Source: an uncultured Pelagibacteraceae bacterium (GTDB taxonomy: Bacteria; Pseudomonadota; Alphaproteobacteria; Pelagibacterales; AG-422-B15). From it: a stretch of 55,021 bases of DNA. How positions within the stretch are numbered: the stretch's first letter is position 1; each line of letters opens with the position of its first letter. This document shows, one piece after another, positions 535 through 13,625 of the stretch. Made by a program: the position numbers and the translations under genes. The stretch lies in contig CABZHO010000005.1 of assembly GCA_902525595.1 (NCBI GenBank), positions 1-55,021 on the forward strand, in the 5' to 3' direction. The notes below the pieces were generated by a model. The model saw only the letters and a program-made list of their open reading frames with translations. It did not search any database and was not told where the DNA came from.

Positions 535-2237
535 AAAAAATTCCAAGACAATCTTATGCAGCTATGTATGGCCCCACAACAGGCGATAAAGTAAGGTTAG
601 CTGATACTGAACTTTTCATAGAGGTTGAAAAAGACCTCACAGTCTATGGTGAGGAAGTCAAGTTTGGTGGTGGCAAAGTTATTCGCGATGGCATGGGACA
701 GTCTCAGGTTTCAAGAAGTGATGGCGCAGTAGACACAGTTATTACGAATGCTCTAATACTTGATGTCACAGGGATATTTAAAGCAGATATTGGACTAAAG
801 AACGGAAATATTGATCATATTGGAAAAGCTGGTAACCCTGACACACAACCCGGTGTGGATATAATAATTGGTCCAGGTACTGAAGTTATTGCAGGTGAAG
901 GTAAAATTGTAACGGCGGGCGGCTTTGACAGTCATATACATTTCATATGTCCTCAGCAAATTGATGACGCCTTACATTCTGGCATTACTACGATGCTAGG
1001 TGGAGGTACTGGACCAGCACATGGAACATTAGCAACTACTTGTACACCAGGGCCATGGCACATCGGCAGGATGCTTCAATCATCGGATGCTTTCTCGATG
1101 AATTTAGCTTATGCAGGCAAAGGAAATTCTTCGATGCCTTCTGGTTTAGAGGAACAAGTTCTTGGTGGAGCAGCTGCTCTCAAACTTCATGAGGACTGGG
1201 GCTCTACTCCTGGTGCAATTGATAATTGTTTAAATGTTGCTGATAAATTCGACGTTCAGGTCATGATACATACTGATACGCTCAATGAAAGCGGCTTTGT
1301 AGAAAATACAATCAATGCAATTAATAAAAGAACCATTCATACATTTCATACTGAAGGTGCAGGAGGTGGACACGCGCCTGATATAATAAAAATTTGTGGT
1401 GAACCGTATGTTTTGCCATCTTCAACTAATCCAACACGACCGTTTACTGTTAACACTGTTGAAGAGCATTTAGATATGCTAATGGTTTGCCATCACCTTG
1501 ATAAATCAATACCTGAAGACGTAGCATTTGCTGAGAGTAGAATACGCAGAGAGACAATGGCTGCTGAAGACATACTGCACGATATGGGTGCTTTCTCAAT
1601 CATCGCATCTGACAGTCAAGCTATGGGACGCGTTGGCGAGGTTATTATTAGAACATGGCAAACAGCTCATAAAATGAAAGTGCAACGAGGAAGACTATCT
1701 GAAGAGCAAGGCGATAATGATAATTTAAGAGTTAAACGTTACCTTGCAAAATATACAATAAACCCATCAATTGCTCATGGAATCTCTTCTTATGTTGGCA
1801 GTCTCGAAAAAAATAAAAGAGCCGATATTGTAATCTGGGACCCAGCTTTTTTTGGTGTTAAGCCTGAGATTATAATAATGGGTGGGAGTATTGCCTGCGC
1901 TCAAATGGGCGATCCAAACGCATCGATTCCTACACCCCAACCTGTATACACCCGCCCAATGTTTGGAAGTTATGGAAGATCACTTGAAAACTCTTCAGTA
2001 ACATTTGTCAGCAAAAGTTCACTGAAGGCAGACAGTCTTAATCATCTCAATATACAAAAAAACCTACTGCCGGTGAGCAATACAAGGTCTATTGCAAAAA
2101 AAGATATGGTTTTAAACGATGTTTGCCCAACCATAGATGTAAATCCTGAAACATATGAGGTTAGAGCAAATGGAGAAATTATAACATGTGAACCAGCGGA
2201 AGAGCTGCCAATGGCACAAAGATATTTTATGTACTGA
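531..2237 (+). CDS. ureC: Urease alpha subunit (catalytic)
   Basis: A 568-residue protein, full family length, carrying the complete dinuclear nickel site: His135 and His137 (SHIHF), the carbamylated Lys218 (ALKLHEDWG), His247 (MIHTDT), His273 ([10 protein letters not shown]) and Asp361 ([10 protein letters not shown]). The flap residues Cys320-His321 are also present, so the enzyme looks active. It hydrolyses urea to ammonia and carbamate, giving the cell a nitrogen source. It overlaps ureB by 4 bp and is followed 2 bp later by ureE. No part of the sequence suggests truncation or decay. Confidence 0.98.
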
Positions 2238-2239
2238 CT

Positions 2240-2683
2240 ATGGAAATTTGTAATTCAATATTAAGCAACTATGATTTCTCTGAAGAGATGGATACAATTT
2301 CCCTATCTTATGAGGAGAGATTCATGCGACGCAAAAAATTAATTTCTGACAAAGGCCACGAATTTCTTGTTGATCTTGAAGAGATGAAATCAGTCTTGAG
2401 TAATCAAGCTTTCAAACTTGAGAGTGGAAAATTAATTAAAATAAAATCAAAAAAAGAAAATTTAATTGCGATCAAGTCAGAAGATTTAAATAAATTAATA
2501 TGGCATATTGGGAATAGACATATCCCCTGTCAGATTGAAGCTACAAGAATTCTAATACAAAGTGACCATATCATTGAGGATATGGTCAGAAGACTTGGGG
2601 GGCAGACAAAATCTGTGGTTGAACAATTTAATCCTGAAGGAGGGGCCTATGGTATGGGGAGAACACATGGTCACAAGCATTAA
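2240..2683 (+). CDS. ureE: Urease accessory protein UreE (nickel chaperone)
   Basis: A 147-residue protein with the UreE layout: an N-terminal peptide-binding-like domain, then the metal-binding domain with WHIGNRHIPCQIE (about residues 88-100) and a short C-terminal His tail ending HGHKH. UreE delivers nickel to the apo-urease complex formed with UreD, UreF and UreG. The His tail has only three histidines, much shorter than the long runs in some enterobacteria. The gene starts 2 bp after ureC and its end overlaps the start of ureF. Confidence 0.93.
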   Translation: MEICNSILSNYDFSEEMDTISLSYEERFMRRKKLISDKGHEFLVDLEEMKSVLSNQAFKLESGKLIKIKSKKENLIAIKSEDLNKLIWHIGNRHIPCQIEATRILIQSDHIIEDMVRRLGGQTKSVVEQFNPEGGAYGMGRTHGHKH

Positions 2684-3326
2684 AGATAGATACTTATTAG
2701 ATTTAAAATCTCATCAAATTTTACATCTTTGGTTTTCGTCATCATTTCCTATTGGTTCATACGCATATTCGCATGGTCTTGAGGCTATAATTGATGACAA
2801 GCTTATCAAAAATAAAAATGACGTATTAGAATTTATTAAGAGTATTCTCTTTGAGGGAACATGCAGAAATGAGTATATCTTTATCAAGGCTGTCTATCGC
2901 GGAATTGATATAAATGATTTAGTACTTGCAAGCTGCGCATCCAAGGAACGTCAACTTGAAACGCTTAAAATGGGAGATGCATTCAGAAAAATTATGTCTG
3001 AAAGTTGGGGCTATACAATAGATAATGAGACCGCTTTCCCAGTCTGTATAGCTCAAGCAGGTATTAAATTTCATATTGCCTTTAATGATTTGGTTGATTT
3101 TTATATTCAATCATTCATCTCAAACTTAATTAATATGTGCGTTAAACATATACCTTTAAGTCAGAAAGATGGTCAAGATTGTATGGTTTCATTTCTTGGA
3201 ATGATGAAGAGTTTTCATAATACGATGAAAGACTATAGCTTAGACGATTTACGCAGTTCCATGTTTTATGCCGATATTTATAGTATGAAACACGAAAATC
3301 TTACATCCAGAATTTATGTAACATGA
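2667..3326 (+). CDS. ureF: Urease accessory protein UreF
   Basis: About 219 residues. The UreF signature [13 protein letters not shown] lies near residue 20, where family members have P-x-G-x-[FY]-x-[HYQ]-S-x-G-[LM]-E. UreF is part of the UreDFG activation complex and controls UreG GTPase activity during nickel insertion. I chose the ATG at 2667 because GGGGAGA sits 4 bp upstream and the resulting length matches the family. The open frame extends to 2562, but that stretch only overlaps ureE in another frame. The gene overlaps ureE by 17 bp and ureG by 4 bp (ATGA). Confidence 0.92.
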
Positions 3327-3981: not shown

Positions 3982-4071
3982 AAAATTTACAAATTTAGGT
4001 TTGTAAGTTATTGATAAGACTCCCAAATACTTAGCCCCTATCGCTTAATAGTAAAGCAGGTCATTGGTAAT
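3982..4071 (+). repeat. Left flanking direct repeat (attachment-site-like, tRNA 5' half)
   Basis: Positions 4004-4071 are identical over 68 bp to 13522-13589. The similarity extends upstream: a 12-bp match (aaaatttacaaa) at 3982-3993 and 13500-13511 is followed by a 10-bp diverged gap of equal length in both copies. The repeat covers about 30 bp upstream of a tRNA-Thr-like gene and its 5' half, through the anticodon loop TTGGTAA plus one base, after which the two copies diverge completely. Here the tRNA is truncated, so this is a non-functional half. A perfect repeat ending in an anticodon loop is typical of site-specific integration by a tyrosine recombinase (established pattern). The integration event itself is inferred. 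Confidence 0.9.
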
Positions 4072-4181: not shown

Positions 4182-4225
4182 TGTCCCATGAATAATCGGC
4201 GTTGCTACATATATGCTACATACAC
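4182..4225 (+). repeat. Diverged direct repeat inside the left island end
   Basis: A 44-bp stretch beginning tgtccc matches 13456-13499 in the same orientation at 36 of 44 positions with no gaps. Both copies contain a tandem pair of TGCTACAT units about 11 bp apart, tgctacata then tgctacat. Internal repeated words next to an attachment-like core resemble recombinase arm-binding sites, but that is inference. The rest of the 3944-4264 gap holds the left flanking repeat and no plausible gene. A weak inverted hexamer (4099-4104 with 4147-4152) is the only other structure I see. Confidence 0.65.
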
Positions 4226-4264: not shown

Positions 4265-4606
4265 TTAATCAAATCCAAAATTATTTGAGTTTAAATTTAA
4301 TGAAATAATTAAAAAGAAAAGCAAAAAAATAAAACAAATTTGAAATATGAAGAATATAAACAATTTTATACGAGTGATTTGACTTGGCATAATTGCAATT
4401 ACGAAAAGGTTATATAGAGGCACAACAATAAAAGCTATCATAGGAATATAGATTAGAAGTGCATCATGTATAATTATGCAGCCAAAGATTGCTGCAGAAA
4501 AGAAGGCTGAGTAATAAAGTGGTGGAGCTACAGCACCTGTTATAAGAGGATTTTCAATTGCAAAGTTTCTGAAAGCTTTCACTGCATGACTAAAAAGGAA
4601 TAACAT
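4265..4606 (-). CDS. Small integral membrane protein of unknown function
   Basis: About 113 residues. Three or four hydrophobic spans are visible (roughly residues 20-43, 44-72 and 82-104), the last very rich in Phe and Ile. I do not recognise a family. The open frame reaches 4660, but the ATG at 4606 is preferred: AGGA lies 7 bp upstream and it begins one base after the helicase stop codon, so the gene is probably coupled to the helicase. It is the last gene of the leftward island operon and sits directly beside the left island end. A role in membrane association or immunity would be a guess. Confidence 0.6.
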   Translation of the reverse strand: MLFLFSHAVKAFRNFAIENPLITGAVAPPLYYSAFFSAAIFGCIIIHDALLIYIPMIAFIVVPLYNLFVIAIMPSQITRIKLFIFFIFQICFIFLLFFLIISLNLNSNNFGFD

Positions 4607-4607
4607 T

Positions 4608-6287
4608 TTAATTCCTATAAATTTCATTTGTGATTTTACTGAGCCTGCTGTGACTTTCATCAGGTAATAATCTCAGCATTTTGATTAAAACTTCATCACC
4701 TGATAAAAGAATTGCTTCTCTAAAACTATCAGCATTAATCTCAGATTTTGAAGCTTCACTTTCATCAATGTCCATTCCTCTCACAATCACTCCATGCCGC
4801 AGCGCATTATCAAGGCTTATAACAAAGTGACTATCAAATCGCTCACCACAATGTTCACATTCTGAAGCTGAAATAGGATTAAGATGATCACATGCTTCAC
4901 ATTTTTTATAACTAATATTACCATCTGAAAATTCATGGCCACAAGCTTCATTGCAACAAACTTTTGCATTTAAGCTATTTTCAGTTTGGCAAGATGGGCA
5001 TAATTTAGTTTTCGGTCCAGTTCCTTCCTCTCTTTTAGAAGGTGACATTTCTCTCTCAACACGTCTTGCGTACTCCTCGAATATTAAGTGAGTTGGCATT
5101 ACAACATATGCACGAGAATCATCTTTTGGACCATAGCTCCTAACAACTCTGCCCATCGCCTGTCTGAAAAAAAGTTCCGTTTCAGCAGGCGGTAAATAAA
5201 CTAAAACCCTTAATCTTTTAATATCGACACCTTCACTTACCATCGCAACAGAAACCAGCCACTTGCGATCAGAATTTTTATAAATTTGAATGAGATTTGA
5301 CGCATTAGGTTTTTCACTATGTACCAAAATAGGCTTCTCGTTATATTTCATCTCTATAATCTTACTCATATATTCAGCTGTCTCGATATTTGGTGCAATT
5401 ATTAAACCTCCTGCACTCGGTAATCTTTTACGAGCTTTTTCTAGTTTTTCGTTTGCAGCATCAATCATTGATGCCTGATAAGAATTCAAGTCAGGAGTAA
5501 TATTGTCATCAAGATACTTTGGTATGCGAGCGAGGCGATAAAATTCTATTGCCTTATCTAGAGCCTTAATTCTCTTAAAATTACCTTTTATTTTTGTTTT
5601 TTTGGTACCTGATACATCAACTGAAGTGCCATCCATGAAATCCACCTTGAAATGGCCCTCATGTCGATGAAAAGTTATAGGGCGACAATACTCAAGATCT
5701 ACTGCTTCACCGTAAGTGAGTGTGAAACTGCCACCTTCTGGATGTTCAACTCTGTTGTTCTTTCCTGTTTCAAACCAAACTGTATCTTTTCCATCAGACC
5801 TAATAGGTGTTCCAGTCAAAATAATTGAATATTTCGCTTCATTAAATGCTCCATAAGCTCCTTCACCCCAAACGGCCTCAACGGCGGCATGATGGTGTTC
5901 ATCACAAATAACGAGGGTTTTAAATTTTTTACAAATTGTTTGAAACCCACCAAGTAATCCCTGTATCGATTGCCATGTAGCGCATAAATCAACTCCGTAA
6001 TCCTCAAAACCTTGATTGCTTCCAGTTATCTTTGTCATATGACGGCCTGTGATAAATTTAAACTCATCAGCCCATTGTTTTACAACTTCCTTTGTTGGAG
6101 CAATTACAATAACTCTCTCAATAGCATTCTTTTCAATTAGTTCTTTTGCCATTACAGTTGCGCAAATAGTTTTTCCAGAGCCAGGTGCTGCGTTTATTAA
6201 AAATCTTTTGTTATTTTCCGCAAGAAACCAATTTTTACATTTATTAATTGCTTCGGCTTGCCATGGTCTTAGCTTTATAGAACTCAT
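4608..6287 (-). CDS. SF2 DEAD/DEAH-type helicase with C-terminal zinc ribbons
   Basis: A 559-residue superfamily 2 helicase. Motifs: Q-like RPWQ (residues 7-10), Walker A APGSGKT (34-40), motif II DEHH (129-132), motif III LTGTP (about 157-161) and motif VI QAMGRVVR in the second RecA domain. After the helicase core come two Cys4 clusters, CPSC with a CCNEAC partner and CEAC with CEHC (about residues 430-490), consistent with zinc ribbons. It resembles COG1061-type helicases of phages and islands. It should unwind or translocate on DNA in an ATP-dependent way; the true substrate is unknown. It overlaps the HNH gene by 4 bp, so it belongs to the same cassette. Confidence 0.88.
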   Translation of the reverse strand: MSSIKLRPWQAEAINKCKNWFLAENNKRFLINAAPGSGKTICATVMAKELIEKNAIERVIVIAPTKEVVKQWADEFKFITGRHMTKITGSNQGFEDYGVDLCATWQSIQGLLGGFQTICKKFKTLVICDEHHHAAVEAVWGEGAYGAFNEAKYSIILTGTPIRSDGKDTVWFETGKNNRVEHPEGGSFTLTYGEAVDLEYCRPITFHRHEGHFKVDFMDGTSVDVSGTKKTKIKGNFKRIKALDKAIEFYRLARIPKYLDDNITPDLNSYQASMIDAANEKLEKARKRLPSAGGLIIAPNIETAEYMSKIIEMKYNEKPILVHSEKPNASNLIQIYKNSDRKWLVSVAMVSEGVDIKRLRVLVYLPPAETELFFRQAMGRVVRSYGPKDDSRAYVVMPTHLIFEEYARRVEREMSPSKREEGTGPKTKLCPSCQTENSLNAKVCCNEACGHEFSDGNISYKKCEACDHLNPISASECEHCGERFDSHFVISLDNALRHGVIVRGMDIDESEASKSEINADSFREAILLSGDEVLIKMLRLLPDESHSRLSKITNEIYRN

Positions 6288-6484
6288 ATTTTTGATCCTT
6301 TCTTAAAGTTACATTCAGCACACAATGCTTGGCCGTTTTGGATTATTGTTTTTCCCTCCTTTATGAAAGGGATGATGTGATCCCCATGAAAAATGGGATC
6401 TAAATACTTCTGACATTTTGAACACTGGTTTCCAGAAATCATGGCCAGAATTTTCTTCTGTCGTTTTGTAAAAAATCTTCTCAT
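6284..6484 (-). CDS. Small HNH endonuclease
   Basis: A 66-residue protein that is almost entirely an HNH domain: CSKC near the start of the fold, the catalytic GDHIIP (about residues 32-37), the Asn of IIQNGQALC and the closing CAECNFKK. The four cysteines form the zinc site of the His-Asn-His/N family. Such minimal HNH proteins cleave or nick DNA and are frequent beside phage replication or packaging genes. ATGA overlaps join it to the HTH gene upstream and the helicase downstream, suggesting the products work together. Target specificity cannot be read from sequence. Confidence 0.85.
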   Translation of the reverse strand: MRRFFTKRQKKILAMISGNQCSKCQKYLDPIFHGDHIIPFIKEGKTIIQNGQALCAECNFKKGSKI

Positions 6485-6744
6485 CTACTCACCCAGTATT
6501 CAGTCACTAGAATTTCTTTTACCGGAAGATTTGATGGCGGTTTACAAATACAATATTTTTGTAATCGTTTTAAAACTGTAAGCATTGGAACTTTTCTAGA
6601 TTTGATGATGAATCCATCATTACGAAGTCGCATAACTGAACTAGTCAGTTCCTGTACTCCAAATAGTAAGGTTGCCTCTAATCTTGCAACTGGTTCATCA
6701 TTAAGCATATATTCTTTCAAAGCCGAATGGTTTCCATTTTTCAT
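6481..6744 (-). CDS. Small winged-helix/HTH protein (HTH_39-like)
   Basis: An 87-residue protein. Residues 1-55 look like a helix-turn-helix of the kind found in phage proteins: LEATLLFGV, then LTSSVMRLRNDGFIIKSRKV, where the LR-x-x-G-x-x-I-K turn matches a wing. I read it as similar to the HTH_39 family, not confirmed by search. A strong ribosome site AGGAGG lies 5 bp before the ATG, marking the start of efficient translation in the HTH-HNH-helicase cassette. The stop overlaps the HNH start by 4 bp. It could regulate the cassette or recognise a DNA site for the nuclease or helicase. Confidence 0.65.
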   Translation of the reverse strand: MKNGNHSALKEYMLNDEPVARLEATLLFGVQELTSSVMRLRNDGFIIKSRKVPMLTVLKRLQKYCICKPPSNLPVKEILVTEYWVSR

Positions 6745-6752
6745 TGTTCCTC

Positions 6753-7082
6753 CTAAATCCCTAATGTGTTAAACAAATTTTTTTTGTTGAATGAATTTTC
6801 CATGCTTTGGCATTCTTCATTGTAAACTGCAAGCCAAGGATCATTTTCGATGAGACATGAAACATCTCTTGTGTAGTAATCTGCATCAGGATTACTAGGC
6901 TGTCCGAAGTAATCCTTGTACATTACCGATGGCTTCCGTAACTCAAAGATTTTTTCTGCCTTGTCGTACAAAAACTGGTCAGAAAATTTATTTCCAAGAC
7001 TATTGCATAATTCTTGATAAATTAAATAAACTGCAGTTTTTCTGGCTATTTTTTGTTTATTTATATTATTTTTACGTCTCAT
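6753..7082 (-). CDS. Hypothetical protein, island operon
   Basis: A 109-residue soluble protein that I do not recognise. The N-terminus is strongly basic (MRRKNNINKQKIARK), followed by predicted helices and an acidic, aromatic second half with YYTRDVSCLIENDPWLAVYNEE. No signal peptide or membrane segment is visible. It starts 42 bp after the CHAT gene stop and ends 8 bp before the HTH gene start codon, so it bridges the CHAT gene and the nucleic-acid cassette on one leftward strand. DNA binding is possible from the basic end but not shown. Confidence 0.6.
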   Translation of the reverse strand: MRRKNNINKQKIARKTAVYLIYQELCNSLGNKFSDQFLYDKAEKIFELRKPSVMYKDYFGQPSNPDADYYTRDVSCLIENDPWLAVYNEECQSMENSFNKKNLFNTLGI

Positions 7083-7124
7083 ACTCTGTAGACGCAGGTA
7101 AAGGAAATTTATTCCAATTAAATT

Positions 7125-10100
7125 TTATGGACCGTAATACGAAAATGCACCCCAATAAGCAGGGTGATCATATTCTGGAAAATTTTCTCTTAAATAAAGC
7201 TGAGCATTTCTAAAAGCTTCAGCAGGTTCGTACTCGTTTTTGAGCAAATTATGCATGAAATTATTCATGAACTTCACTGTAGAGCGAGATTCAACAGGCC
7301 AATTTGAAACAATAATTGACTTTGCTCCAGCATAGAGAAAAGCTTGAGCTAAACCAGATAAGATTTGATTATCATTTCTACTTCCAGAAGAAGTATTGCA
7401 TGCAGATAGAATGACAATTTCAGCATTTAGATTTAATTTAGATATTTCTGTCGGAGTTAGATAGCCATCATCTAAAACACTTGAATTTTGTGGTAAAGTT
7501 AAGACTAATCCTGGTTCATCAAATAAATTATGGTTATTTGCAGGAATGCCATGTGTTGCGAAGCTAATTATATCGTATTTTCTCAAATCCATTGTCTTGA
7601 TATTAGTTTCAGTTGCGTCATCTCTGAGTAATAATTTTCGATTATTATTATTAAAGTTTTGTGAAATATTTATCAGTTCTTCAGAAGTTTCAGGCAATTC
7701 ACTGAGTTTAGATAACATTTGTTTATCAGCAATATTGCTGTTTCTAAATAGTCCAAAAATTTCATCTGCCTGTGCGAATTCTAACGAATTTTTTTTGTTA
7801 CTATTTAATATCGGGTCACCAATACCTAAATAACTTAAGTTTTTATTCTTTAGACTACTTTTATCTGAACCAATTAAGCTTTTTAAATTTATTAAATTAG
7901 AAATCGAAACATATTCATTTAAAAAATCAAATTCTAGAAAATCTTCTTCAAATGTTGAAACATTATCTCTATTTGAAACATTTAATGATGAAAATATTGA
8001 AATGGGCAAGTGCCTATCTTTCATATTTGTTAAAAAAAATAATTTATCTCGAGGTCTAACATCCCACAATACACCGCCAAGCATATTACCTGCTAAATAT
8101 CTAATTGGATGGTTCATCGATGAAAAATCTGAACTATATTCTTGGGATTTTAGTTTAAGTTTAATGTCATCAATTATTGTTTTCCTTAACTCGGAGTTAT
8201 CTTTCATGTAAATATATTTAAAAAGTTTGCCGCTGTAATCCATGTTGGATAAAGGATCCCAAAATCTTGATACTGGGATTATAGCTGTGTATGGAACATT
8301 ATTTTCATTAATGGCAATTTTCATGACAAAACTAAAATACTCGTCCTCTAAATATATTACTAAAATCTCATTTTTATCTATATGAGGGACTATGTCATTA
8401 AGCTCGTAGAAAGATACATTGACTTGAGATTTTGATTCAATTTCAGGAAACTTAGCTAAGATATTTTCTATATCATTTTTTTTTGAATTGATTTTATTAT
8501 TATAGTAATAATGATCTACATCTGAATTAGTTGTATTTTCAAATAAGTATTCTTTTTCTAAAAAATATAATTCACTTTTTTGGTCCTGATAAGATTTAAG
8601 ATTGCTAGCAAAGGATTTGTCGTTTTGACTTTTTCGAATGATCATTTTTTCATATGAGTCAGAAGCTTTACTTTGCATAAGAAATTGAGCAGCTTGGAAT
8701 GCAAGATTATTAAAATCAAAAGTTAATTTATCAGTTTTTCGAAATTGGTCGGATTTAGGTTTATCTATTGTTATTCTTTTTAATGGTAATGGAGGTGTAA
8801 ATTCTTTATTCTTTTTTGAATTTTTATAAGCTTCGTAAAGCCATTTGCTTAAAAATATAAAGCTTGTATCTTCTCTCGGCTGATCAACTAAATCTTTAAT
8901 AAAGAGATCTGGATTATCTTGACTAAAGATATTGAAATTTAATACGCTTTCAACTAAGAAATCATTAACAGCAATTAAATAGTCGTCATCTTGAATTCCG
9001 TAATTTCTCAAAATTGAATTAGGTGATAAATTTTTTATTTGCATTCTTGGCATAGTGGCATGAGTGTATGGACAATTTTCTGGGAGATAATTATCTCTAA
9101 AACAATCTCGAGCAGGTCCTTCGGAATCTACTTTAAAATCAATAAATATTTCTTTTTTTATATCACTAACACTAATGTCGAAATCAATGTAATTATTAAA
9201 ACCTACGATTTCATTGCTCAATTTCATTGCCTGCACAATAATTTCAAAAAAATGATAATCATAATTTATGATAAAATTATTTTTACTTTCAAAATCAAGA
9301 TTATTATAAAGTTCAGTAGAGAAATGAATAAAATTAGTATAATGATTTAATTGTCTTTCTAAATCGCCTTCTATACCTGCTTTGTCAGCTAGCATAACAG
9401 AGAAATTTATTGCATCTGATAGTTCGTCGTTATTAAATATTTCATTTGGATTGAGATCTATTAATTGATCTGCTACAAATTTCTCAGATAGATCTTTAAA
9501 ACATTCAATACTGTAACATTTAAAAATTTCTATAACCTGCTCACCATCAGTCATTTTTGCTAAAGTTGGTGTAAGATTTTTACGCCAAATATCTATGGTC
9601 TCATACATCTCATTCCAATATAAATATATTAAACTAGAAGATATTACCCTTAAGTATGCAAACTTTTGATAGGATTCAAAATCTGCGAAATATGTATGCG
9701 TTTCGTTTATAAAATTAATTTTTTCTTCATCAGTTATCTCTTTTAAATCATCACACCTCGAGTCAAGGTCATAAATAAAATAACTGCAATTTCCCATTAA
9801 TAAATATGACAGCTTAAAATTTAAATATTCAGGGTCATCATGAGTTAAATTTAATTGTTCAACTGCTTGCATGGCTTGATTTACCAAAAACGCTGCTTCG
9901 TAGTTAATTTCACCCCCAATGTCATAACTCTCTATTTCGGCTATAGCGATATAATAATCTGCAAATTCAATTATTTTATCTAAATTTCTTAACTGATCAG
10001 CTATTCCAATAAGATTTGATTTATTAGAGAATCCTAACTCAACTAACCTATTATACTGTTCATCGCTACAATCAGAATAAATACAAGGGGATTTTTTAAT

Positions 10101-10322
10101 TATAAAATCTAAATATTGCTTTCTTTTGCTGAAAGTAAGATTTTCATATTCATTTTTGCGTAATTCAAGTTCATACAAAGCCTTGTCTACTTCACCATTT
10201 ATGATTAATTCCTCTACTAATACTGAAAAATTTGGGTTTTTGTCAGATATTAAGTAGATGGCTCCAAGTAATAGAAGGATTAAGATCGTGGGTAGAAAAA
10301 AAATACTTAAATTTTTAGTCAT
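7125..10322 (-). CDS. Membrane-anchored CHAT-domain (caspase-like) protease
   Basis: About 1065 residues. An N-terminal hydrophobic segment (about residues 6-27) should anchor it with the bulk outside the cytoplasm. A long helical, TPR-like region follows, then a PDZ-like stretch (SPNSILRNYGIQDDDYLIAVND, split over about 428-450). The C-terminal CHAT domain has the catalytic pair His924 (FATHG) and Cys975 (ILSAC) and the family ending with SNWPV and HPAYWGAF. CHAT proteases are clan CD cysteine peptidases related to caspases. The frame opens at TTG 10325, but ATG 10322 is the likelier start. It is divergent from the sigma gene across 59 bp, implying joint control. Its substrate is unknown. 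Confidence 0.85.
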   Translation of the reverse strand: MTKNLSIFFLPTILILLLLGAIYLISDKNPNFSVLVEELIINGEVDKALYELELRKNEYENLTFSKRKQYLDFIIKKSPCIYSDCSDEQYNRLVELGFSNKSNLIGIADQLRNLDKIIEFADYYIAIAEIESYDIGGEINYEAAFLVNQAMQAVEQLNLTHDDPEYLNFKLSYLLMGNCSYFIYDLDSRCDDLKEITDEEKINFINETHTYFADFESYQKFAYLRVISSSLIYLYWNEMYETIDIWRKNLTPTLAKMTDGEQVIEIFKCYSIECFKDLSEKFVADQLIDLNPNEIFNNDELSDAINFSVMLADKAGIEGDLERQLNHYTNFIHFSTELYNNLDFESKNNFIINYDYHFFEIIVQAMKLSNEIVGFNNYIDFDISVSDIKKEIFIDFKVDSEGPARDCFRDNYLPENCPYTHATMPRMQIKNLSPNSILRNYGIQDDDYLIAVNDFLVESVLNFNIFSQDNPDLFIKDLVDQPREDTSFIFLSKWLYEAYKNSKKNKEFTPPLPLKRITIDKPKSDQFRKTDKLTFDFNNLAFQAAQFLMQSKASDSYEKMIIRKSQNDKSFASNLKSYQDQKSELYFLEKEYLFENTTNSDVDHYYYNNKINSKKNDIENILAKFPEIESKSQVNVSFYELNDIVPHIDKNEILVIYLEDEYFSFVMKIAINENNVPYTAIIPVSRFWDPLSNMDYSGKLFKYIYMKDNSELRKTIIDDIKLKLKSQEYSSDFSSMNHPIRYLAGNMLGGVLWDVRPRDKLFFLTNMKDRHLPISIFSSLNVSNRDNVSTFEEDFLEFDFLNEYVSISNLINLKSLIGSDKSSLKNKNLSYLGIGDPILNSNKKNSLEFAQADEIFGLFRNSNIADKQMLSKLSELPETSEELINISQNFNNNNRKLLLRDDATETNIKTMDLRKYDIISFATHGIPANNHNLFDEPGLVLTLPQNSSVLDDGYLTPTEISKLNLNAEIVILSACNTSSGSRNDNQILSGLAQAFLYAGAKSIIVSNWPVESRSTVKFMNNFMHNLLKNEYEPAEAFRNAQLYLRENFPEYDHPAYWGAFSYYGP

Positions 10323-10353
10323 CAAATTAAATTTATGTCAAAAAAAATTAATT

Positions 10354-10381
10354 TGGAATAGATTTCTGGTAGGATCGTATT
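10354..10381 (+). promoter_or_regulatory. Candidate ECF-type promoter at the sigma gene
   Basis: TGGAAT (10354-10359), a 16-bp spacer and CGTAT (10376-10380). The same arrangement occurs at 11469-11496. GGAA-type -35 boxes with CGT-type -10 boxes about 16 bp apart are the usual ECF sigma pattern. One conflict: transcription would begin near 10387, just inside the annotated sigma start at 10382, so either the sigma gene starts later (for example TTG at 10412) or this box is not its promoter. Confidence 0.5.
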
Positions 10382-10870
10382 ATGAATAATAAGGGAAAGT
10401 ATAAAGACAAATTGTTTGATTTATATAGTAAATTGCTGAGAACTGCGATTGCAATCGTACCAATTGCCGAATCAGAAGATTTAGTTCATGACACTCTCGA
10501 ATATTTTTTAAAACGTGAACAGAAATATACTGATCATCAGAATTTAGAGGCGGTTGCAATTATGAAATTAAAAAATATAAAAATTGATAAGTGGAGAAAT
10601 AAATCAGGAACAAGATTCGAAGAAATTGATGAAACGTTTATAAGAGATTATATATACGAAAATGAAGATGATTTTGCAAAAATTGAAAGAATAATAGATT
10701 TCAATAAACTTTTTTCAAAAATAGGAGAGAAATGTAAAGAGATTATGAATCTATCTCTGGATTATTCATATGGTGAAATATCCACACTCTTAGATATTGA
10801 GAAAGCCACAGTTGGAAGCCGACTTTCAAGGTGTTATGAAGAGCTAAGGGAGATTGGGAAAGATGGTTAA
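10382..10870 (+). CDS. ECF-like sigma-70 family factor
   Basis: A 162-residue protein with a reduced sigma-70 layout. Region 2 spans about residues 11-60 (LLRTAIAIV, SEDLVHDTLEYFLKRE) and region 4 about 125-157, where the HTH reads YSYGEISTLLDIEKATVGSRL. Domains 1 and 3 are absent, as in extracytoplasmic-function sigma factors. It should direct RNA polymerase to a small regulon. The ATG at 10382 has no clear ribosome site, and a promoter-like box ends right before it, so translation may begin further in, at TTG 10412. The anti-sigma gene overlaps its end by 8 bp. It is diverged from standard ECF groups. Confidence 0.82.
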   Translation: MNNKGKYKDKLFDLYSKLLRTAIAIVPIAESEDLVHDTLEYFLKREQKYTDHQNLEAVAIMKLKNIKIDKWRNKSGTRFEEIDETFIRDYIYENEDDFAKIERIIDFNKLFSKIGEKCKEIMNLSLDYSYGEISTLLDIEKATVGSRLSRCYEELREIGKDG

Positions 10871-11456
10871 AATTACTGACGAGATGCTTTATGCATTTAT
10901 AACTAAAAACGTCTCCATTGACGAAAGTGAGAATATTCAAAATGCCATTGAATCAGATGAAGAAACGAAAGCAAAATATCAAGAAATTTTAAATATACGA
11001 GAAACACATGAAGAATTCATAAGAGATTTTGAAAAAAAACCAATGCCGAAAAGAATTGAAGAACTTTTTACACAAACGAATTCCATAAAGCAAAATAATT
11101 TTTTTTCTAGGTTTGCTCGAGGACCTTTAGCAGGTTTCGGTTGGATTGGATTCATAATAACAGGATTATTTGTCTTTCCAACAATGACGATTCAAATGGC
11201 TCAAAACAATAAAACAAGCAACACAATGATTGCCAGCACAGATGACCAGGAAATAAGATTTAGAGGGCTAGATGGGGAGATTATGAAAGAAATTTCTATT
11301 GGAGAATTATTTAAATTAAAAACAGGATCAAATGAAGAATTTGAAATAACAATTTCCTCAGTTTTAAATACGACTGAGCAAACATGCTTCACAATCACAA
11401 TTAATTATGACAATAAAACTGCGAATAATCTGTCAAAATTATGTATAGATAAATAA
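10863..11456 (+). CDS. Transmembrane anti-sigma factor-like protein
   Basis: About 197 residues. The cytoplasmic N-terminal part opens like anti-sigma domains (ITDEMLYAFI, then an acidic helix pair), without the HxxxCxxC zinc motif. A single membrane span lies at about residues 91-110 (AGFGWIGFIITGLFVF), leaving about 85 residues outside the membrane with two cysteines that could pair. The gene overlaps the sigma gene by 8 bp (ATG 10863, GGGA 5 bp upstream), the normal arrangement of an ECF sigma and its inhibitor. It would hold the sigma factor at the membrane until a signal inactivates it. Assignment rests on topology and position more than on sequence. Confidence 0.7.
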   Translation: MVKITDEMLYAFITKNVSIDESENIQNAIESDEETKAKYQEILNIRETHEEFIRDFEKKPMPKRIEELFTQTNSIKQNNFFSRFARGPLAGFGWIGFIITGLFVFPTMTIQMAQNNKTSNTMIASTDDQEIRFRGLDGEIMKEISIGELFKLKTGSNEEFEITISSVLNTTEQTCFTITINYDNKTANNLSKLCIDK

Positions 11457-11468
11457 AATTTATATCAC

Positions 11469-11496
11469 TGGAATATTTAAGATTACAGTGCGTCTT
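11469..11496 (+). promoter_or_regulatory. Candidate ECF-type promoter of the repeat peptide
   Basis: TGGAAT (11469-11474), a 16-bp spacer and CGTCTT (11491-11496), matching the box at the sigma gene in both elements and in spacing. Transcription would start near 11503, giving a short leader with AAAGGAG (11519-11525) 6 bp before the ATG at 11532. This fits control of the secreted peptide by the adjacent sigma factor. Confidence 0.6.
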
Positions 11497-11531
11497 CTTT
11501 GTAGATGAACAAACATATAAAGGAGATTACA

Positions 11532-11765
11532 ATGATTAAAAACCATCTTACCAAAGCGTTACTTATAATTTTAATGGTTTCAGCTAACACAGCTAATGCT
11601 GACATGCTGTATGATTCATTTGAGAATGAATGGGAACTTGGAAGCTCAAACGATGTCTACATGTACAATGGATTTGACAACGAATGGAGTTACGAGCCAG
11701 AGGGATCTCAACTTGAATATAATGCCTTTGAACATACTTGGGGCTATACATACGAGGGGTATTAA
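11532..11765 (+). CDS. Small secreted peptide with three 18-residue aromatic repeats
   Basis: Seventy-seven residues. Residues 1-23 are a classic signal peptide ending ANTANA, with cleavage expected before Asp24. The mature 54 residues consist of three repeats at exact 18-residue spacing: Y27-x-x-F30-x-x-x-W34, Y45-x-x-F48-x-x-x-W52 and Y63-x-x-F66-x-x-x-W70, consensus Y[DN]xF[ED][NH]xW. The mature part is strongly acidic, with many Tyr, Trp and Glu and no Lys, Arg or Cys. The start at 11532 is set by AAAGGAG 6 bp upstream and an ECF-like promoter. I do not recognise the family. It is a likely target or product of the sigma/CHAT system. Confidence 0.8.
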   Translation: MIKNHLTKALLIILMVSANTANADMLYDSFENEWELGSSNDVYMYNGFDNEWSYEPEGSQLEYNAFEHTWGYTYEGY

Positions 11766-11915
11766 ATTTTTTAATGACGAAACTTCGTAATTGCTTTTTA
11801 TTATATCAGGTATCGTACTTAAATTACATGATGCCTGATGTAATTAGTTTAAGCCACAATTTTACCAAAATACGAACATTTTATAGTTATATCTCTATTC
11901 TAAAAGGAGACAAAA

Positions 11916-12611
11916 ATGAGAAATAATAATTTTAAAAAATCACATATTTATCAAAGTAAGGCAACGTTATTTATAAATCCATCCAAGAAACAAAAGATAA
12001 AAGATAAAAATCCAAAGATATTTTTTAGTTTTTTTTTAGCTGTAATTTTATTTTCATCAATTATTAGTTTCTCAGTACTCGCGGATAATAAAAATAATTG
12101 GACAGTATGGCACGACGATGATTATGAATTCACTTACATCGATGCATGGGGTTCAATTGCTACAGACTTAATGACACTTACAATTAAGAATAATAATTGC
12201 GATAAACTTTTAGTTAATTTCTTTATTTCCAGTGATCGTGAGTCAATTGCAAAAGATTGGACAAAATTTATTGTTGAAATTACAGAAACTCCTCATAACC
12301 AGCAAGGTGTACCTTCAAGAGAATATAAAAATGTTGTTTTTATCAATTACACAGAAATACTTCAAAATGGTATAGTTTATATGCTTGGATTTGACCATGA
12401 GTATGAAACTAATGATTGGATTGAACGATTGGATAATAGTGATCCTTTCTACTTTTATTTAAGCATAGCTGAGCATGCTGAAGAGCAAGCAGACCCTACA
12501 ATATATTTTGAACACACAGACAATATTTGGGATATGTCAGATCTCAAGGATACATTAAAAAATGCGTACCGTAATTGTAGATTTCAAAACTATAACGAGA
12601 TATCGCTTTAA
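11916..12611 (+). CDS. Secreted or membrane-tethered protein of unknown function
   Basis: A 231-residue protein. The start is secure: AAAAGGAG lies 6 bp upstream. An unusually long basic N-region (about residues 1-33) precedes a hydrophobic segment (about 35-54) ending VLADN, so it may be a cleaved signal peptide or a type II anchor. The exported part is acidic and aromatic (WTVWHDDDYEF, FDHEYETNDW) with two cysteines (NNCDK and YRNCRF) that could form a disulfide. I recognise no family. It lies 150 bp after the repeat peptide and 23 bp before another secreted protein of the same island, suggesting related export roles. Confidence 0.7.
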   Translation: MRNNNFKKSHIYQSKATLFINPSKKQKIKDKNPKIFFSFFLAVILFSSIISFSVLADNKNNWTVWHDDDYEFTYIDAWGSIATDLMTLTIKNNNCDKLLVNFFISSDRESIAKDWTKFIVEITETPHNQQGVPSREYKNVVFINYTEILQNGIVYMLGFDHEYETNDWIERLDNSDPFYFYLSIAEHAEEQADPTIYFEHTDNIWDMSDLKDTLKNAYRNCRFQNYNEISL

Positions 12612-12634
12612 GTGCCTGATTTAATATTCATAGT

Positions 12635-13225
12635 ATGTCTGAATTAATGAAAAGTAAGATATTTATGAGAATAGTATTTTTAATTTTTACAATTTCATTT
12701 TTTAACATAACTATCGCTAACGCAGACGTGAGTAATGATTTTCCATATTTCTGCGAACTTAGTATTAGTTTTTATCCTGAAGATGATGGACGTTCTTACG
12801 AAAAATTTCATAGAAATGATAAAAGAATAAGAGGGATAACTAAAATTTATGAGGGAGAACATCCATCACACGGTTCTTATAAACAATTAGGCGTAAGACT
12901 AGTAAGTGACGTCTGCTATAGAAATGAGGCTACTGAAGTACTGTACGTTGATAATCCTGAAGATTTCTGGATTAAAAGCGCTAACGTAGAAGTTAAAAAA
13001 TTCGAATACTCGCTTTCCGAATTTATACTGGTTTTTTTGGACGATTTTAAAACTAATGAAGAAAATGATGATTGCTCAGATAAATGGTGGACTGCTTTTG
13101 AGGACGACCAAAGAGTCATACTTAAAGTTGCAGATATATATCAAGGTATGACAGCGCACTATTCAACAGCCTTTGCAATAGTCCCTGAAGATATTATGCT
13201 TAATGGAAATTGGATTTGTTCATAA
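12635..13225 (+). CDS. Secreted protein of unknown function
   Basis: A 196-residue protein with a typical signal peptide: basic start (MKSKIFMR at residues 5-12), hydrophobic core (IVFLIFTISFFNITIA) and a probable cut after IANA near residue 30. The mature part has four Cys (FCELS, DVCYR, DDCSDKW and the C-terminal WICS), suggesting two disulfides in the periplasm or outside. No family recognised. The start is uncertain: neither ATG 12635 nor ATG 12650 has a clear ribosome site, which suggests translation coupled to the gene 23 bp upstream. It is the last gene of the rightward island arm. Confidence 0.7.
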   Translation: MSELMKSKIFMRIVFLIFTISFFNITIANADVSNDFPYFCELSISFYPEDDGRSYEKFHRNDKRIRGITKIYEGEHPSHGSYKQLGVRLVSDVCYRNEATEVLYVDNPEDFWIKSANVEVKKFEYSLSEFILVFLDDFKTNEENDDCSDKWWTAFEDDQRVILKVADIYQGMTAHYSTAFAIVPEDIMLNGNWICS

Positions 13226-13455: not shown

Positions 13456-13499
13456 TGTCCCGTGAATACTTGGCACTGCTACATACGTGCTACATGCAC
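13456..13499 (+). repeat. Diverged direct repeat inside the right island end
   Basis: Partner of 4182-4225: 36 of 44 positions identical, same orientation, containing tgctacata and tgctacat about 11 bp apart. Here it abuts the flanking repeat directly (13500), whereas on the left it is separated from it by 110 bp. The order core-arm on the left and arm-core on the right is what element ends bounded by recombinase sites could show. Confidence 0.65.
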
Positions 13500-13589
13500 A
13501 AAATTTACAAAATAGAAATTATAAGTTATTGATAAGACTCCCAAATACTTAGCCCCTATCGCTTAATAGTAAAGCAGGTCATTGGTAAT
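13500..13589 (+). repeat. Right flanking direct repeat
   Basis: Positions 13522-13589 are identical to 4004-4071 (68 bp), with further similarity from 13500. This copy runs on into the 3' half of the tRNA-like gene. The repeat ends one base after the anticodon loop, a preferred crossover zone of tRNA-targeting recombinases. Unusually, the duplicated half is the 5' half with its upstream region, not the 3' half. Confidence 0.9.
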
Positions 13590-13625
13590 GATCAGCCGCT
13601 GGAGCGTAACCAGCTAGGGGCACCA
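13552..13625 (+). tRNA. tRNA-Thr(GGT)-like gene with non-canonical D- and T-loops
   Basis: The 74-nt segment folds as a cloverleaf. Acceptor GCCCCTA (13552-13558) pairs with TAGGGGC (13615-13621); D-stem GCTT/AAGC; anticodon stem GGTCA/TGATC with loop TTGGTAA (13582-13588), anticodon GGT for Thr; T-stem GCTGG/CCAGC; then discriminator A and an encoded CCA. All four stems pair over full length, with one G-T pair. Departures from canonical tRNA: the D-loop AATAGTA has A where G18 is expected, and the T-loop is AGCGTAA instead of TTCRANN, although C56 is kept and positions 54/58 are swapped as A/T. It may be a decaying tRNA serving as an integration site, or an unusual functional one. Confidence 0.6.

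Follow-up and report, generated by a model that had tools for sequence, protein, structure and literature searches.

The 55,021-nt contig CABZHO010000005.1 from an uncultured Pelagibacteraceae bacterium (assembly GCA_902525595.1; hereafter the window) contains a gene for a membrane-anchored CHAT protease that is divergent from the genes of an extracytoplasmic function (ECF) sigma factor and its putative membrane anti-sigma factor, followed by a gene for a small secreted repeat peptide. These genes probably make up a variant of the ECF26-type circuit in which a CHAT protease fills the protease slot. An earlier note on this DNA had described the set, together with two further secreted proteins, as a candidate new system that signals across the membrane. 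Every open reading frame (ORF) named there is present in the window, and the idea of a trans-membrane signalling layout gains support from related sigma/anti-sigma pairs in which the divergent slot is again held by an exported protease. The same observation speaks against the claim of a new architecture: in Sinorhizobium meliloti, the ECF26 pair RpoE6-EcfR6 has already been described as divergent from the serine protease SMa0142 (PMC6180224).

The proteins of the module

The sigma factor matches the NCBIfam family TIGR02937 above the family cut-off, contains domains 2 and 4 of an ECF sigma factor and aligns with the sigma factor of PDB entry 5uxx at 8e-4. According to phmmer, its closest relatives sit in modules with an S8 protease. 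The protein encoded by the overlapping downstream gene has no Pfam or NCBIfam match of its own and is homologous to the membrane anti-sigma factors of S8 and C14 modules. It consists of an inner helical anti-sigma domain, a single predicted transmembrane segment (residues 87-105, from hydropathy) and a short outer domain with two cysteines that are invariant in the alignment with the comparators. A structure model placed the inner helices at predicted local distance difference test (pLDDT) values of 73-88 and the rest at low confidence (mean 52, too low for fold comparison). Judged by this homology, the RpoE6-EcfR6 type has a divergent relative in the pair at 10382-11456. Sigma factors of this type were not found in the other SAR11-order genomes (97 SAR11-order genomes searched), and the phage and plasmid collections contained no closer relatives of the sigma factor, the anti-sigma factor or the peptide.

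The CHAT domain forms the C-terminus of the protease (residues 800-1065; Pfam PF12770, 154 bits). Its catalytic residues are intact, as the earlier note had stated: the histidine in ATHG (922-925) is kept in 52 of 53 aligned CHAT domains and the cysteine in SACNT (973-977) in all 53. The membrane anchor proposed there corresponds to a single hydrophobic helix at the N-terminus (residues 7-25, from hydropathy), and we infer that the protein is anchored in the inner membrane and faces the periplasm. The ~740 residues that follow this helix have no recognised relatives, and the CHAT protein alone as query found no relatives in the genome and viral collections. The structure model, computed from the single sequence, reached a mean pLDDT of 34, which is too low for fold comparison. 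A PDZ-like segment noticed by eye (around residues 424-452) was discarded: Pfam, BLASTP and phmmer returned nothing there, and the hhalign match to this segment fell short of significance. The SAR11-order CHAT protein of locus L010 (10016-14302) has an N-terminal PDZ domain (1e-18).

In a tree of CHAT domains, the window protein groups with the exported CHAT proteins of the SAR11 order with a support of 1.0. These proteins (loci L010-L013) contain the closest CHAT domains, with up to 44% identity. A SAR11-order CHAT protein is present in 5 other genomes among 397 searched; at one such locus (L012) a gene for a trypsin-like protein (10876-12129) adjoins. While the CHAT domains are similar, no sigma or anti-sigma gene was found near the SAR11-order CHAT genes, and none of the seven loci adjoins a sigma gene of this type. 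Across Alphaproteobacteria, CHAT proteins are common (76 of 385 genomes), and this sigma type is next to none of the 40 CHAT loci examined; the lone sigma gene in those stretches lies more than 10 kb from CHAT at one locus. A general linkage between CHAT and sigma genes was rejected on this count. Hence, the context search across Alphaproteobacteria found no second case of the combination proposed in the earlier note, while the divergent protease slot does recur. The earlier note had also named separate occurrence of the genes as evidence against a joint system. This is in part what we observe: CHAT and the two further secreted proteins occur without the sigma factor, and where related sigma pairs lack CHAT, a different protease accompanies them. 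It seems that a sigma pair arriving from outside has joined a protease typical of the lineage.

The repeat peptide carries a signal peptide ending in ANA, followed by three imperfect Y[DN]xF[ED][NH]xWx[LY] units. Its mature part contains 13 acidic residues and no lysine or arginine, and no relatives were found in the databases. We dropped the reading as a bacteriocin (mediterrocin model, E 0.008-0.015), since the model no longer matches once the signal peptide is removed. Small secreted proteins that consist mostly of DDxDD repeats and echo this acidic peptide are encoded near S8-type ECF26 modules at loci L049 (4429-4890) and L181 (6248-6796). The two further secreted proteins (11916-13225) do exist, as the earlier note had reported, but their membership in the module was rejected because the same pair occurs without sigma or CHAT in five genomes of the same genus. 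Pairs of this type (L302-L307) have no recognised function and differ in genomic location; in one genome (L302) restriction-type defence genes adjoin them.

In the window, the CHAT gene on the minus strand and the sigma gene on the plus strand are separated by a common 59-bp gap, and the genes for the anti-sigma factor, the repeat peptide and the two further secreted proteins follow in this order (Table 1). The more likely start of CHAT is the ATG at 10322, one codon after the listed TTG. Likewise, ATG 10863 is the more likely start of the anti-sigma factor, and ATG 11532, behind AAAGGAG, that of the peptide, whose product would then have 77 rather than 86 residues.

Table 1. Features of the module and of the island that carries it (positions in the window)
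Feature	Position	Strand	Basis
Membrane-anchored CHAT (caspase-like) protease, 1065 aa	7125..10322	-	Pfam CHAT 9e-45; tree; hydropathy; motifs
Predicted ECF26-type promoter GGAATA-N15-CGT	10355..10378	+	Exact match; 3 nt 5' of sigma ATG
ECF sigma factor, 162 aa	10382..10870	+	TIGR02937 6e-14
Putative membrane anti-sigma factor, 197 aa	10863..11456	+	Homology to S8/C14-module anti-sigma factors; hydropathy
Predicted ECF26-type promoter GGAATA-N15-CGT	11470..11493	+	Exact match; 38 nt 5' of peptide ATG
Predicted secreted acidic repeat peptide, 77 aa (54 aa mature)	11532..11765	+	Sequence; ribosome site AAAGGAG; composition
Third exact ECF26-type promoter match	7092..7115	-	9 nt before ORF 7082
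Left 68-bp direct repeat of island (30 bp + 5' part of tRNA gene)	4004..4071	+	68/68 identity to 13522-13589
Right 68-bp direct repeat, overlaps complete tRNA gene 13552-13622	13522..13589	+	Repeat comparison; sibling homology resumes here

Related modules and promoters

A class-wide search with the sigma factor returned loci in which the sigma/anti-sigma genes are divergent from a gene for an exported protease. The protease is an S8 subtilase at loci L035 and L049 and, in one case from Alphaproteobacteria (L038), a TPR-caspase of family C14. The order S8, sigma, anti-sigma also appears on plasmid records of Aminobacter, Nitratireductor and Agrobacterium, and the S. meliloti genes for RpoE6, EcfR6 and SMa0142, located in pSymA, match the family. 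Three protease families, S8, C14 and CHAT, fill the slot.

The S. meliloti module (PMC6180224) shares with the window a sigma gene followed by a gene for a membrane anti-sigma factor with a periplasmic domain, a divergent gene for a predicted exported protease and the GGAATA / GT promoter class. The window differs by having CHAT instead of S8, by the lack of a sigma promoter before the protease gene, by the shortened outer domain of its anti-sigma factor and by the added secreted repeat peptide. Autoregulation of the sigma factor was tested for RpoE6 and is predicted for its counterpart in the window. The C14 module (L038 / L070, Alphaproteobacteria metagenome-assembled genome BS150m-G7) also places a caspase-class cysteine protease in the divergent slot and has the cysteine-pair motif in the outer domain of its anti-sigma factor. 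It differs in its protease family and in its longer anti-sigma factor, and no repeat peptide was seen there.

We ran a family profile of the anti-sigma factors, with S8 modules as its main source, on 385 Alphaproteobacteria. Twenty hit regions beyond the seeds were fetched after the alignment had been built, and proteases were counted within 3.5 kb. Where the match reached into the outer domain, 11 of 12 anti-sigma factors had an S8 protease neighbour at this distance; where it was confined to the inner domain, none of 8 did (Fisher P 7e-5, from a small sample of phylogenetically non-independent matches and a mainly S8-derived profile). The sole exception with an outer domain, L191, has no protease neighbour; at this locus the two-cysteine motif also ends a predicted secreted protein (2210-3241) whose gene adjoins a sigma gene. 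This co-occurrence supports a link between protease and anti-sigma factor, although it does not amount to proof and cleavage stays a putative step. Since three protease families share the slot and the protease tracks the outer domain rather than the inner domain, we suggest that protease and outer domain are part of one mechanism.

The promoter consensus of ECF26 sigma factors is GGAATA / GT (PMC6180224). The window contains four copies of the motif GGAATA-N15-CGT, compared to 0.13 expected from shuffles: one precedes the sigma gene (10355), one the peptide gene (11470) and one the minus-strand ORF 7082 (7092), and the fourth lies inside a gene (15956). The last match was taken as chance: it lies within a coding gene and is identical in the sibling genome G006, where no such sigma factor was found. 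The 9.6-kb island alone contains three exact N15 sites, whereas the frequency elsewhere in the genome predicts 0.04 (P ~1e-5, or ~5e-5 with spacers of 14-16). Over the whole host genome the motif is not enriched; with spacers of 14-16 there are ten matches and fifteen for a reversed control. The gene for the small secreted repeat peptide of the earlier note thus carries the promoter type of the neighbouring sigma factor. ORF 7082 leads a run of minus-strand genes (4265-7082) that comprises a small ORF and winged-helix, HNH and helicase genes. Less certainly, the regulon of the sigma factor may extend to these genes by way of the site at 7092.

Several comparator modules have a like motif 7-13 nt before the sigma start. 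Of the 15 comparator protease genes, 9 also have an exact GGAATA-N15/16-CGT motif in the 260 nt that precede them, and one more gene has such a motif with one mismatch. Upstream of CHAT, no ECF26-type motif was found within 260 nt with up to one mismatch allowed. Because no sigma-type promoter precedes its gene, CHAT is probably made independently of the sigma factor. The missing promoter is the main predicted difference in wiring from the known ECF26 module.

An island at a tRNA gene

The window belongs to a host genome of 1.0 Mb, and the relatives searched are small genomes that we call SAR11-like on the basis of their size and gene content. The earlier note had called the set island-borne, and the borders agree with this. 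The region is enclosed by a perfect 68-bp direct repeat with a period of 9518 bp, which belongs to a 93-nt imperfect repeat family and takes in 38 nt from the 5' end of a tRNA gene. This tRNA scores 50.9 bits with Rfam, was missed by ARAGORN, has an unusual T-loop (AGCGTAA) and is conserved in siblings; its anticodon was read by eye as GGU. A second, inexact repeat is located near both island ends (4182-4221 and 13456-13495, 33/40). The genes downstream of the island have counterparts of 97-99.7% identity in sibling G006, where homology stops at the tRNA, and in sibling G002 the urease operon runs directly to the same tRNA. From the repeat borders and the comparison with these two siblings, we therefore place the module on an integrated element of ~9.5 kb. 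Its other cargo includes a ResIII-type helicase, an HNH gene and a winged-helix gene. Pfam and PHROGs recognised no tyrosine recombinase or other integrase among the island genes, and the island contains no CRISPR-like repeats. With tycheposon-like tRNA islands, the element shares the tRNA border with duplicated tRNA sequence; it differs in that a tyrosine recombinase was not found on it.

Possible roles of the CHAT protease

In the ECF26-type variant that we propose, the anti-sigma factor would hold the sigma factor at the inner membrane, and an envelope signal acting on the two-cysteine outer domain would release it. The free sigma factor would transcribe its own operon and the acidic repeat peptide from the GGAATA-N15-CGT promoters. 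With the topology predicted above, the membrane-anchored CHAT would stand in for the exported S8 protease and share its side of the membrane with the outer domain and the peptide. Its most likely job would be to act on the periplasmic parts of the circuit, either the outer domain of the anti-sigma factor or the peptide or another envelope protein. Cleavage of the anti-sigma factor by CHAT is plausible.

Tentatively, CHAT could be the activating (site-1) protease, which cuts the outer domain so that more proteolysis frees the sigma factor and the sigma factor induces the peptide. The association of proteases with the outer domain, the three protease families in one slot and the lack of a sigma-type promoter before CHAT all argue in this direction, and so does the precedent of type III-E CRISPR systems, of which this circuit would be a non-CRISPR parallel. 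In those systems, the TPR-CHAT protease Csx29 cuts Csx30, an inhibitor of CASP-sigma (PMC10028731), and as in the window a CHAT protease, an ECF sigma factor and a sigma inhibitor are encoded together. However, Csx29 and Csx30 work inside the cell, whereas the window CHAT is predicted to be exported and its anti-sigma factor is of a different, membrane type; the module has no Cas7-11/gRAMP match, and the island has no CRISPR array. Because no sequence match of CHAT to Csx29 or any solved structure was detected, the likeness to Craspase is one of layout only. A further argument against CHAT as activator is that SMa0142 is a target of the sigma factor in S. meliloti (PMC6180224).

This last point leads to a reading that we consider somewhat unlikely, namely that the protease is an output arm and not a regulator. 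Under envelope stress the circuit would supply an exported protease and secreted proteins, with CHAT replacing S8 and perhaps processing the peptide or another envelope protein. Overexpression of RpoE6 raises expression of the protease gene SMa0142 and of its own operon including ecfR6 (PMC6180224), and both the exact motifs upstream of most comparator protease genes and the sigma-type promoter of the repeat peptide are consistent with such a role. CHAT itself has no such motif, however, and would not be induced together with the rest.

It is unlikely that a SAR11-type CHAT and a sigma/anti-sigma pair were joined on the island by chance and do not work together. The pairing occurs once, neither the other SAR11-order CHAT proteins nor the 40 other alphaproteobacterial ones have a sigma gene beside them, and the two further secreted proteins exemplify how unrelated cargo gathers on the island. 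Yet CHAT occupies exactly the divergent slot of the protease in related modules, across a short shared gap. It is quite improbable that the set serves in phage defence or competition, with the sigma factor or the peptide as alarm or toxin: the island sits at a tRNA site beside a helicase and an HNH gene and CHAT proteases act in defence elsewhere (PMC10028731), but PADLOC matched none of the six proteins to a described anti-phage defence family, the weak bacteriocin match came from the signal-peptide end, and the surroundings of the S8 relatives, on chromosomes and plasmids, are ordinary genes.

Several observations weigh against an ECF26-type circuit with CHAT in the protease slot. The combination of CHAT with the sigma pair is a single case. 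Identity to the comparators is 20-32% for the sigma factor and 12-25% for the anti-sigma factor, so both are divergent, and the outer domain is truncated, with the protein stopping just past the second cysteine. The structure models are too poor to test contacts. The start codon of the sigma gene is uncertain because the promoter lies so close to the annotated ATG, unless the transcript is leaderless. Finally, the protease is a transcriptional output in S. meliloti, a role that needs no action on the anti-sigma factor. The authors of that work call the mechanism of ECF26 sigma activation hypothetical (PMC6180224).

The most specific form of our proposal is doubtful: CHAT would be a periplasm-facing protease under regulation, and by cutting an ECF26-type anti-sigma factor in its outer domain it would switch on the repeat peptide. 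This would be a CRISPR-free, envelope-facing parallel to Craspase, and the relatives searched of this SAR11-order genome do not have such sigma factors. If true, type III-E CRISPR would no longer be the only known setting where CHAT, a sigma factor and its inhibitor belong to one circuit. The divergent protease of ECF26 modules has so far been read as a target of the sigma factor. Since the CHAT gene has no sigma promoter, this variant would separate the role of regulator from that of target and may provide a clean case for testing control by the protease.

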